Shown here piece after piece: positions 41,765-55,622 of a stretch of 64,000 bases of DNA. Numbering within the stretch: position 1 is the stretch's first letter; every line of letters begins with the position of its first letter. The translations under genes and the position numbers were made by a program. The notes under the pieces are model-generated. The model ran no database searches, was not told the DNA's origin, and worked only from the letters and a program-made list of their open reading frames with translations. This DNA comes from Yoonia sp. (GTDB lineage: Bacteria > Pseudomonadota > Alphaproteobacteria > Rhodobacterales > Rhodobacteraceae), in contig NZ_JAFMHJ010000007.1 of NCBI RefSeq assembly GCF_017854565.1, forward strand, positions 1 to 64,000. Reading direction: 5' to 3'.

Positions 41765-41778
41765 TTGTCCTAGGTCAA
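41765..41778 (+). promoter_or_regulatory. CRP/FNR-family-like dyad upstream of phaC
   Basis: TTGTC-CTAG-GTCAA matches the FNR/FixK consensus TTGAT-N4-ATCAA at 7 of 10 positions, in a highly symmetric form. It lies 114 bases before the phaC start. Similar dyads precede atpD and acsA. Confidence 0.45.
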
Positions 41779-41891
41779 AGTACCGCGCCTGCGTTTGGCC
41801 CATCATCACACCGTAACCATGTTGCCGGCCGGGCGTTCTTTGCGATGCAACGCGGGAATCGCTGCCATCAGTGGCTGGCGAAGGGGCTGAA

Positions 41892-43712
41892 ATGAGTAAG
41901 AGAACAGCAAGACCCAAGACCAAATCGGTCGCTGGGAAGAGAGCGACCGCGCATGCGCTGGTCCCGGTTGTTGTCGCGCCCGGTCGACAGAGCCGTCCAG
42001 AGCATCCGCACCAGAACCTTGACCGGGGGGTGCGTGCGGCGGCTGCGCGGTTGAGCGGCGGCGTCGCGACCCACGCATTTGTTGAAGCCTGGACCGACTG
42101 GGCGCATCACATGGCCCAATCGCCGGGTCGTCAGCTAGAGCTCATTGAACATGCGCAACGCAGCGCGCTGAAGCTTATGACCTATGTGGCGGACACAAAA
42201 CACGATGGGCAACCGCCCTTTGCCCCCAAAGGCTATGATCACCGCTTTGACAGTGAGGGCTGGAACGAGGCCCCGTTCGAGATGTGGAAACTGGGCTTTC
42301 TGGCGATGCAGGACTGGTGGGACCTTGCAACTGATCGCCTGCGGGGGTTGCAGCCCGATGATGCGGACCGCACCCGTTTTATGGCGCGACAGACGCTGGA
42401 TCTGGTGTCGCCGTCGAATTTCCCATGGCTGAACCCCGAGATCATCAATGAGACGGTCGCGACCGGCGGTCAGAACCTGCGCGACGGTGCTGCCAATTTC
42501 GCCCATGATTTCATGAAAACGGTGTCGCAGGCGCATGAGGCGCCGCCGGAGGGCTATCAGATTGGCAAGGATTTGGCCTGTACGCCCGGTCAGGTCGTGT
42601 TTCGCAATGATCTGTGCGAATTGATCCAATACGCGCCACAGACCGAAAATGTGCGGTCCGAACCGATCCTGATCGTGCCGGCGTGGATCATGAAATACTA
42701 TATCCTTGATTTGTCGCCGCATAACTCGATGGTGAATTACCTTGTGGGGCAGGGGTTCACTGTATTCATGATTTCATGGTGCAACCCCACGGCGGAGCAG
42801 GCCGCATTGTCGCTGGAAGATTATCGGCAGCGTGGCGTGATGGCGGCGCTTGATATGATCAATGCCATCGTGCCGGATCAAAAGGTTCATGCTGTCGGCT
42901 ATTGTCTGGGCGGCACGATGTTGGCGATTGCGGCGGCGACGATGGCGCGCGGAGGTGATGACCGGCTGGCCACGATCACGTTGATGGCCGCACAGGTCGA
43001 TTTTGCCGAAGCCGGAGAGTTGCTTTTGTTTCTGGACGAAAGTCAGGTGGCCTTTCTCGAGGACATGATGTGGGATCAGGGCTATCTTGATCGGCCACAG
43101 ATGGCGCGGGCCTTTTCGACCATCAGGTCCGAAGACCTGATCTATTCGCGGGCCGTGCGCCGGTATTTTCTTGGGAAAGAGGATCTGCCGACGGATATGG
43201 GCGTTTGGGTGGCGGACACGACCCGCATGCCCGCCCGGATGCATGCGCAATATCTGCGTGGCCTGTTTTTGGAAAACCGTCTGTCGGCGGGGCGTTTTGC
43301 CGTTGAGGGGCGGGTGATAGCGATGAAGGATATCGCGGCACCGATGTTTGTGATCGCCACCGAGGACGATCACATTGCGCCGTGGCGGTCGGTTTATAAG
43401 ACCCAGTTGTTCACCGACTGTGACCTTACGTTTGTGTTGACCAGCGGGGGCCACAACGGCGGGATCGTCAACGAGCCGGGCAAATCGGGGCGTCATTTCC
43501 GGATGTCGCACCGCTCGCAGGGCGCGCTTTATGTGGGGCCGGATGCCTGGCTGGCACAGCGCGCGGCAATATCGGGGTCATGGTGGCCGGAATGGAAGGA
43601 CTGGCTGGACGATCAAAGCAGTGGCGAACGATCCGCGCCAGCCGCCTGCGCACCGGGGCAGGACCATGCGGTGATCATCCCCGCACCGGGCACCTATGTG
43701 CATCAGACATGA
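41892..43712 (+). CDS. phaC: Poly(3-hydroxyalkanoate) polymerase, class I
   Basis: The 606-residue enzyme polymerises (R)-3-hydroxyacyl-CoA into storage polyester at the granule surface. The lipase-like box GYCLGGT carries catalytic Cys338; [10 protein letters not shown] holds the catalytic Asp and [13 protein letters not shown] the His. [24 protein letters not shown] is the usual N-terminal-domain signature. Length fits class I (single-subunit). ATG 41892 follows GAAGGGG. No phaA, phaB, phasin or depolymerase lies here, so this is probably a second, specially regulated synthase. It is 130 bases upstream of, and in line with, the N-ATPase operon. Confidence 0.93.
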
Positions 43713-43734
43713 CCATGGCCACGCTGGCAAAAGA

Positions 43735-53803: not shown

Positions 53804-55545
53804 TGCTCATCACTTTCCAAGGTCGAAATGTCACCTTCGGGTAAGCCAAGTTCGCGTGCTTTCAGCAGGCGCCGCATGATTTTGCCGCTGCGGGTCTTGG
53901 GCAGGTTGGTGCGGAATACCATTTCCTTTGGCGCGACGGCCGGACCCAGCCGGGTGCGGGCGTGCCCCAGCAGTTCCAGAAGCAGCTGATCGGTGGGTTC
54001 AATGCCGGGTTTGAGCGCGACAAAGGCTTTGACGCGTTCACCCGCCGTTTCATCCGGCACGCCGATCACGGCCACCTCTGCGACGGCGGGATGTTCCATC
54101 AACGCGCTTTCGACCTCGAACGGTCCAATCAGATGGCCCGCGCTTTTGATCAGGTCATTGCTGCGACCGACGAACCAATAATATCCATCGCTGTCGCGCA
54201 TCGCCAGATCACCGCTGAGATACCAGCCATCCCGAAAACATTTGTCGTAGCGCGCGGTTTCGTGCAAGTAGCCGCGCATCATCGACGGCCAACCTGGACG
54301 CAGCGCCAGTTCGCCGATGGCGCGCGGTTCGGTCAGTTGGCGCAGGCCGTCATCAGATGTCGCGACGATGCCGGCCTTGATCCCCGGCAATGGCTTGCCC
54401 ATAGAGCCGGGCTTGACGGGCATGGCGGCGAAATTGGCGATCATGATGCCGCCGGTTTCCGTTTGCCACCAGTTGTCATGAAAGGGCATGCCAAAGGCAC
54501 TGTTGCCCCAGATCACGGCTTCGGGGTTCAGCGGTTCACCGACGCTGGCCATAAAGCGCAGAGACGTGAAATCATGCCCCTTATGCGCGTTTTCCCCGGC
54601 CTTCATCAGCATGCGAATGGCGGTGGGTGCTGTGTACCAGACGTTCACCGCCTCTTGATCCAGAATATCGTACCACCGCGCGACATCGAATTCCGCCTCG
54701 TCAACGATCATGGTCACACGGTTCGTCAACGGGGCGATGATCCCATACGATGTGCCCGTCACCCAGCCCGGATCAGCGGTACACCAGTAGGTATCGCCGG
54801 GCCTGAGATCGAGCGCGAAGCGACCCGTGATGTGATGGGCCACGACGGCATCATGCACATGCACGACGCCTTTGGGTTTCCCGGTGGTGCCGGAGGTGAA
54901 GTGCAGAAGTGCGGTATCTTCGGGGTCCATTGCTTCGGTGGCAAAGCGGTCCGATGTGGCATCCATCAGCGTGGACAGGCGTTTGGTATTGGCCGCGTCG
55001 CCATCGGTGAGAAAGACGCTGCGCAAATCGGGCAACGCGTCGCGCAGCGCGCTGACCTTGCGCTTGTAAAGCCGTGCGGTGGTAATCAGGGCGTTTGCGC
55101 CGCCAATTTCCATCCGGGCGCGAATGGGTTCGGGGCCAAATGCCGAAAACAGCGGGCAAAAGACGCAGCCTGCTTTCAATGTGCCAAGCGCCGCGATGTA
55201 AAGCTCTGGTGTGCGGCCCAGTAATGCATAGACGCGGGCGCCTTTTTCGAGGCCCTGATCGCGCAGGACATTGGCAAAGCGGTTGGTCAGGTCCGACAGT
55301 TCCTGATAGGTAAATACCGTCCGGGTGCCGGATTTGGAAATCCAGCGCAAAGCGACCTGTGGGCCGTGGCCGGCAAGCACGTGCCGCTCGATCGCTTCGT
55401 GGGCGATATTGAGGCGGCCCCCGGGCAGGCCATTGATCAGCTTGCGTGCGTCATTCCATGAAAAACTGTCATATACGGCGGCGTAATCGGCCATATTGGC
55501 CGCATTTGCCACCTGTTTGGATTTTGGGATTGTGCCGTATTCCAT
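53800..55545 (-). CDS. acsA: Acetyl-CoA synthetase (AMP-forming)
   Basis: The 581-residue adenylate-forming enzyme makes acetyl-CoA from acetate, ATP and Co[13 protein letters not shown] is the A3 phosphate loop, [10 protein letters not shown] the A5 motif and [10 protein letters not shown] the A7 hinge; [13 protein letters not shown] carries the catalytic lysine that is the usual acetylation target. It is shorter than E. coli Acs (652), more like AcsA of Bacillus. First gene of acsA-E1-E2-acp; a CRP/FNR-type dyad lies about 70 bases before its start. Confidence 0.92.
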
Positions 55546-55608
55546 GTCTTCTGCCGTCCTGCCAACGCGGGTTCAGGGCGACTGTAGCGCCGTGCATGAT
55601 ATTGCCGG

Positions 55609-55622
55609 GTGATCAAGATCAA
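55609..55622 (-). promoter_or_regulatory. FNR/FixK-like box upstream of acsA
   Basis: On the minus strand TTGAT-CTTG-ATCAC matches the FNR/FixK consensus TTGAT-N4-ATCAA at 9 of 10 positions. Its centre is about 70 bases upstream of the acsA ATG, which would place a transcription start some 30 bases before the gene if it sits at -41.5. It overlaps the end of the glucan synthase gene. Confidence 0.6.

Follow-up and report, generated by a model that had tools for sequence, protein, structure and literature searches.

An N-ATPase operon with an accessory PHA synthase gene and a conserved acs-E1-E2-acp cassette in Yoonia sp.: a candidate modular island for survival under oxygen limitation

Introduction

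N-ATPases occur beside an F-ATPase in ~3% of genera, as stated in an extract of PMC11738941. Their cellular functions are termed largely unexplored in the available portion of PMC5376962, which also records that a sequence-based prediction of Na+ specificity was wrong for a related N-ATPase, the c17 ring of Burkholderia pseudomallei being H+-specific. The locus described here lies in a 64,000-nucleotide stretch from Yoonia sp. (contig C9:1-64000, in a draft genome of 3.5 Mb; hereafter the window) and consists of phaC, for a polyhydroxyalkanoate (PHA) synthase, followed by a nine-gene N-ATPase operon and met head-on by a four-gene cassette, acs-E1-E2-acp, for an acetate-coenzyme A (CoA) ligase, E1 and E2 proteins of pyruvate dehydrogenase type and an acyl carrier protein (ACP). 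The cassette is conserved and also plasmid-borne, the N-ATPase recurs with the accessory PHA synthase, and Fnr/FixK-type boxes are enriched before both gene groups; on balance, the locus is probably part of a modular, exchangeable island for survival under oxygen limitation.

Judged by analogy of neighbouring genes, the nearest known system appears to be the lxa (low-oxygen-activated) locus of Burkholderia cenocepacia, for which low-oxygen activation is described and FixK is suggested as regulator (PMC6127331). The lxa products include several universal stress proteins (Usp), a heat shock protein, a BON protein, an acetoacetyl-CoA reductase, a phosphate acetyl/butyryl transferase, a phosphofructokinase and a metallo-beta-lactamase-fold protein; similarly, genes for Usp, Hsp20, a hexose kinase, BON and DUF2267 proteins each adjoin single cassette loci in our set. 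In contrast, no N-ATPase, E1, E2 or ACP is among the ~20 of some 50 lxa gene products that are named in the accessible part of PMC6127331. In the ‘group D’ cluster of Burkholderia sensu lato, PhaC stands beside a PhaJ-Pta fusion, AckA and FabI, according to an excerpt of PMC8231600. Group D-like genes adjoin the N-ATPase and the cassette on a plasmid of Sulfitobacter sp. SK012 and, without fabI, in Roseovarius litorisediminis, whereas the phaC of the window directly precedes the N-ATPase with no pta, ackA or fabI nearby; the PhaC proteins are likened here by their neighbours. In Burkholderia thailandensis (BTH_II0418 to BTH_II0427), the genes atpD-2 to atpG-2, in an order that looks N-type, come straight after a phaC locus tag; the acetyl cassette was not seen among the genes given there, and the expression data presented do not favour low-oxygen induction (PMC3966863, in part).

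Neither the acs-E1-E2-acp group nor the whole set was found described in the open-licence literature searched, and the same holds for a pyruvate dehydrogenase that lacks an E3 of its own, has an E2 without its docking arginine and is joined by a dedicated ACP. A parallel by description only is offered by NapB/NapD of naphthyridinomycin biosynthesis, which comprise E1-like, E2-like and ACP parts and transfer a two-carbon unit to the ACP, and which differ in serving a natural-product pathway and in using a ketose donor.

Results

As originally predicted, phaC, the nine N-ATPase genes and the converging acp, E2, fused E1 and acs are all intact and in place, and both halves are tightly packed, with overlaps of 4–17 bases between neighbouring genes on the left and of 4 bases on the right. 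The 17-base overlap joins phaC to atpD, overlaps among the N-ATPase genes are 4–11 bases, every adjacent pair from acp to acs overlaps on the opposite strand, and 12 bases separate the two converging arrays. The interval singled out by the original prediction, 41765 to 55622, begins and ends at two Fnr-like boxes. The features are as follows.

41765–41778, plus strand: weak Fnr-like box TTGTCCTAGGTCAA before phaC, motif score 7/10
41889–43712, plus strand: phaC, accessory-type PHA synthase (ATG start at 41889; GTG start at 41871 possible, giving 613 aa; PF07167, 2e-54; PF12551)
43696–45237, plus strand: atpD, N-ATPase beta (TIGR03305, 745.3 bits, cut-off 752; match from residue 64, the real start being perhaps further in)
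45234–45644, plus strand: atpC, N-ATPase epsilon (TIGR03166)
45641–45928, plus strand: atpQ (TIGR02230)
45925–46224, plus strand: atpR (TIGR03165, E = 3.7e-4; assigned also by operon position; homologues at 41–59% identity in related loci where found)
46221–46916, plus strand: atpB, N-ATPase a subunit (TIGR03306, 298.5 bits, cut-off 302.1)
46913–47200, plus strand: atpE, N-ATPase c subunit (TIGR03322 and PRK13468, above cut-off)
47197–47973, plus strand: atpF, b subunit with a weak C-terminal delta-like match (PF00430; PF00213 under cut-off; TIGR03321 best)
47963–49486, plus strand: atpA, N-ATPase alpha (TIGR03324 best, 640.5 bits)
49483–50382, plus strand: atpG, N-ATPase gamma (TIGR03323 best)
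50395–50640, minus strand: acp, dedicated acyl carrier protein with a D-S-M-D site (PF00550)
50637–51806, minus strand: E2, with a lipoyl domain, a degenerate E1/E3-binding domain and an acyltransferase domain (PF00364, PF00198; PF02817 under cut-off)
51803–53803, minus strand: E1, fused alpha-beta, pyruvate-type (TIGR03182, 420 bits, cut-off 393.85; PRK09212 above cut-off)
53800–55545, minus strand: acs, acetate-CoA ligase (NF003313, PRK04319; 886.9 bits, cut-off 729)
55609–55622, minus strand: Fnr/FixK-type box TTGATCTTGATCAC before acs, motif score 9/10, of a kind enriched before acs in relatives

The acs-E1-E2-acp group is one conserved cassette of overlapping genes that is carried by plasmids as well. 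A total of 102 cassette loci was compiled from an E1 scan of contigs with one genome per species (79 loci, taken from the 80 top-ranking of 207 matches and biased to relatives of the window), from plasmids (7) and from a phylum sample (18), less L150 and L152, which were taken for duplicates of L013 and L050 because their contigs are equal in length. An E1 match at the limit applied was given by 41 of the 397 phylum-sample genomes, of which 19, the Yoonia genome included, were kept at an identity of at least 58%; the other 22 matches, at 35–44% identity, were regarded as other E1 proteins and were removed before co-occurrence was counted. All four genes were recovered in 96/102 loci, in every case on one strand and in the fixed order acs-E1-E2-acp, and in the remaining six (L025, L041, L046, L065, L071 and L081) the absent gene falls at the edge of the sequence piece. 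The four genes stand together in all 79 loci of at least 17.9 kb (hereafter long loci), compared to 0/40 random loci from the sampled genomes, and in the 16 loci fetched from the 18 phylum-sample genomes kept besides our own, the other two being the duplicates. Wherever acs, E1 and E2 occur together (96 loci) an ACP gene is present as well, as it is in L081, and no E2-ACP fusion was found in the cassette loci giving both matches.

The bearers of the cassette include Rhodobacteraceae, Halomonas, Marinobacter, Photobacterium, Hydrogenophaga, Methylocystis and Sinorhizobium. E1 occurs in 21/199 genomes of a family sample (own included) and on 23 plasmid records, seven of which were opened. The E1 of the window is 89% identical to that of Roseovarius species, its nearest named relatives. 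E1 is fused in 77/79 scan loci and 5/7 plasmid loci, and is encoded by two separate genes in 11/16 phylum-sample loci.

Site conservation was read from 40 aligned cassette representatives. The lipoyl lysine and catalytic histidine of E2 are kept in 40/40 and the aspartate in 37/40, and the ACP serine, judged by eye, in 40/40. The GxGR arginine of the E1/E3-binding domain of E2, which we take to contact E3, is missing at its column in 40/40, though the canonical E2 of the same genome retains it (GSGPHGRIVKADV). The genome has two dihydrolipoamide dehydrogenases (Lpd, the E3 function) above cut-off, both encoded elsewhere, and a tblastn search with these two gave an Lpd-like match in 2/102 cassette loci, at 40% identity in L158 and only 25% in L061. 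The marks of a pyruvate dehydrogenase were found as regards a pyruvate-type E1 and the E2 lipoyl lysine and His-Asp pair, and were not found as regards the docking arginine and an E3 gene in the operon. The genome also has a separate canonical pyruvate dehydrogenase, whose unfused alpha and beta match the cassette E1 at 41 and 45% identity.

Since E1 scores above the pyruvate-type cut-offs and Acs above the acetate-CoA ligase cut-off, the substrates are probably pyruvate and acetate, and the ACP would most likely accept the acyl group leaving E2 or Acs. The cassette might also be read as an ordinary second pyruvate dehydrogenase with an acetate scavenger, yielding acetyl-CoA, with the ACP serving lipoylation or loosely associated. 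This is a serious contender, to which we give somewhat less than even weight: it agrees with the E1 score, the invariant lipoyl lysine and catalytic histidine and the two Lpd genes elsewhere, and it sits poorly with an ACP in every locus that has the other three genes and with a docking arginine lost throughout the cassette and kept in the canonical E2. At the other extreme, acs-E1-E2-acp could be an undescribed acetyl-ACP-forming pyruvate dehydrogenase, in which E2 would pass its acetyl group to its own ACP and not to CoA, with no docked E3, feeding at low oxygen a PHA or fatty-acyl electron sink beside an ATP-driven ion pump; we regard this as unlikely.

A second group that recurs is made up of the N-ATPase and the accessory PHA synthase, with maoC-pta and ackA joining in a minority of loci. 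The gene order beta-epsilon-Q-R-a-c-b-alpha-gamma is that of the N-type, and a regular F-type enzyme is also present in the genome, with other ATP synthase alpha and beta genes on contig C47. Among the ‘alternate F1F0’ models, TIGR03166, TIGR03322 and TIGR02230 were matched above cut-off and TIGR03305, TIGR03306, TIGR03321, TIGR03323, TIGR03324 and TIGR03165 under it. Across the 51 N-ATPase loci that are 15.8 kb or longer (L147 being counted with only three subunits matched), the genes within ~10 kb included phaC in 11/51, maoC-pta in 9/51, ackA in 7/51 and crp in 9/51, each compared to 0/40 random loci, and phaC was again found in four (L226, L228, L229 and L231) of 13 N-ATPase loci fetched later. 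The N-ATPase loci L106, L109 and L093 have neighbours resembling carbamate kinase, arginine deiminase, ornithine carbamoyltransferase or a transporter, as named by eye.

The best NCBIfam model for the PhaC of the window is TIGR01838 (Class I PHA synthase; 516.8 bits, under the cut-off of 622.65), both PhaC_N and PHBC_N are matched, and further PhaC matches lie at two other places in the genome. In a midpoint-rooted tree of 23 PhaC rows, which left out those of L226, L229 and L231 and in which the rows beyond the clade were flagged for long branches, the PhaC of the window falls in an accessory clade of 19 rows (support 100/100) with 12/12 N-ATPase-linked and 6/9 cassette-linked PhaC proteins, the latter from the 9/79 long cassette loci with a phaC nearby. 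The rows outside the clade are the PhaC of the genome's own contig C19 and those of L036, L062 and L161. Elsewhere in the genome, contig C31:132328-132835 (L118, L119, L219) holds a phaC-like stretch in two pieces, one with a TGA inside, which may be an accessory phaC that is broken or was misread; ~2 kb away lies a weak Crp-like match.

Fnr/FixK-type boxes are enriched before both gene groups. The box TTGATNNNNATCAA was scored out of 10 in the 300 bases before acs and before control gene starts taken from the random loci. Boxes of at least 9/10 precede acs in 22/78 scan loci, 3/7 plasmid loci and 6/16 phylum-sample loci, compared to 4/318 control starts. For atpD, where ~420 bases were scanned (~300 of them before the annotated start) and only 300 in the control, such boxes were found in 12/52 loci and in 7/13 further loci. 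At a threshold of at least 8/10 the counts are 49/78 for acs, 22/52 for atpD and 41/318 for the control. The contig also carries, ~19 kb from acs, a Crp/Fnr-family regulator gene whose product is 46% identical to one near a Leisingera cassette; of the NCBIfam models FnrL fits this product best, with a score (85 bits) far under the cut-off of 300.

The neighbourhood is not confined to one strain, as four further loci carry both units linked. The plasmid of Sulfitobacter sp. SK012 holds, within ~30 kb, the N-ATPase (the stretch cuts into atpA and so ends before atpG), phaC, fabI, maoC-pta, ackA, acs-E1-E2-acp and usp. R. litorisediminis has the N-ATPase, maoC-pta, ackA, phaC and the cassette; Tateyamaria pelophila has the N-ATPase, dnaJ, an ndvB-like gene, pfkB, ppsA and the cassette; and a Sulfitobacter metagenome-assembled genome (L022) carries both units on a short contig. 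In the window and in R. litorisediminis the units converge, in SK012 and T. pelophila they diverge, and in L022 they stand in tandem; the intervening genes differ.

Co-occurrence was counted in three sets, for which the p-values overstate independence because genomes and loci are interrelated. In the phylum sample (396 genomes, presumably all Pseudomonadota) the N-ATPase occurs in 9/18 cassette genomes compared to 13/378 others (p = 3e-8). It was also found in 14 of 49 searched cassette-locus genomes compared to 28/178 family-sample genomes without the cassette (p = 0.04, the two sets being differently drawn). Of those 14 genomes, three (L022, R. litorisediminis and T. pelophila) have the units within ~20 kb, compared to 0.13 expected by chance; the L022 linkage was known before the 49 were chosen, and 2/13 are linked without it. 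In the family and phylum samples, 14 distinct genomes have both units (six family, nine phylum, with G050 in both), which lie more than 0.5 Mb apart on one contig in four and on different contigs in ten, where no closeness is seen although the units might still be near each other.

These counts bear on whether two unrelated useful gene sets, each working alone, were joined by chance on a gene-rich accessory contig. That the units stay apart in most genomes, and that orientation and intervening genes vary where they are linked, fits such an origin; the phylum-sample co-occurrence, the excess of close linkage and the same box type and PhaC clade across both units do not, and we consider it somewhat unlikely. 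A fixed single module, on the other hand, is ruled out by the units lying apart in most genomes.

Upstream of acs the window and its edge hold two further genes, so that a Usp gene, a GH94/glucan-synthase-like gene and acs follow one another on one strand.

55619–63976, minus strand: ndvB-like gene for a GH94/glucan synthase or phosphorylase of 2785 aa, open reading frame start uncertain (PF17167, PF06165, PF10091), 73 bases upstream of acs
contig C9:64093-65190, just past the window, same strand as acs and the ndvB-like gene: double Usp gene adjoining the ndvB-like gene

A polyketide or nonribosomal peptide synthetase identity, prompted by the size of the 2785-aa protein, was ruled out by its GH94/glucan-synthase-like domains. 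An ndvB-like relative occurs in 3/79 long cassette loci, and in T. pelophila (L237) a GH94-like relative lies within ~5 kb of acs with three marker genes between. The phosphoenolpyruvate synthase gene ppsA is near the cassette in 19/79 long loci (for example L125, L126, L151, L154 and L237) compared to 1/40 random loci. Farther off in the window, a peroxidase-family gene (27811–30039, PF00141) is divergent from a LysR-type regulator gene (30245–31147) and resembles an ordinary katG/oxyR-like pair.

Discussion

Beside the linkage, co-occurrence, PhaC kinship and boxes observed here, the fluxes and biochemistry that we infer for an oxygen-limitation island would run as follows. On oxygen shortage, a Crp/Fnr-family regulator would turn on both gene groups. 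Pyruvate, through E1 and E2, and acetate, through Acs, would be converted to acetyl thioesters, with the ACP most likely carrying the acyl group that comes off E2 or Acs and with any E3 function required supplied by a dihydrolipoamide dehydrogenase encoded elsewhere. PhaC could then use the housekeeping PhaA/PhaB route to store acetyl units together with reductant in polymer form, and the N-ATPase would spend ATP to hold an ion gradient as respiration drops. The roles given to the locus by the original prediction, that it sinks carbon, burns spare ATP and recaptures acetate, are plausible in that they fit what is known of the families.

Several observations weigh against an oxygen-limitation role shared by the two units. 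The cassette and the N-ATPase are seldom neighbours, the N-ATPase being in the flanks of only 1/79 long cassette loci (SK012) and the cassette in 0/51 N-ATPase loci, and in the family sample (198 genomes) their co-occurrence is not significant (6/20 compared to 28/178, p = 0.10). The box before phaC in the window is weak, its score of 7 being the commonest best value in random windows (47%), and among the 78 scan loci the 16 that fall outside the Rhodobacteraceae-like set show a weaker acs signal, with a box of at least 8 in five and of at least 9 in two. The PhaC proteins near the cassette in L036, L062 and L161 lie outside the accessory clade, and usp is near the cassette in 6/79 long loci compared to 0/40 random loci (p = 0.08). 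Under oxygen limitation B. thailandensis did not accumulate PHA, and its PhaC and six Usp genes were lower, as reported in the part of PMC3966863 that was available.

The proposal that both halves belong to one apparent module is thus borne out in part. Recurrent linkage, phylum-wide co-occurrence, common boxes and a common PhaC clade support it, and the rarity of adjacency and the weak family co-occurrence do not; across the 51 N-ATPase loci, phaC recurred and the cassette was not found. Because adjacency is rare and family co-occurrence weak, the locus is better described as an assorted island than as an obligate single device. A phosphate- or salt-stress island in place of an oxygen-related one, for which a PhoB-controlled ORF-pta-ack-fabI operon in Sinorhizobium meliloti (cited in the portion of PMC8231600 at hand) and a tie of an N-ATPase to salt tolerance in Aphanothece (cited likewise in PMC5376962) might be adduced, is improbable, since the group in the window has no pta-ack-fabI nearby and the enriched box, in a scan that covered Fnr/FixK-type boxes, is of the Fnr/FixK type.

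An N-ATPase tied to an accessory PHA synthase and an acetyl-activating cassette under Fnr-type boxes suggests for these genes a concrete role at low oxygen that can be tested. Most worth following is the cassette with its ACP: present in every complete copy observed and accompanied by an altered E2 docking domain, this ACP could mark a new outlet of pyruvate dehydrogenase chemistry across several bacterial groups.

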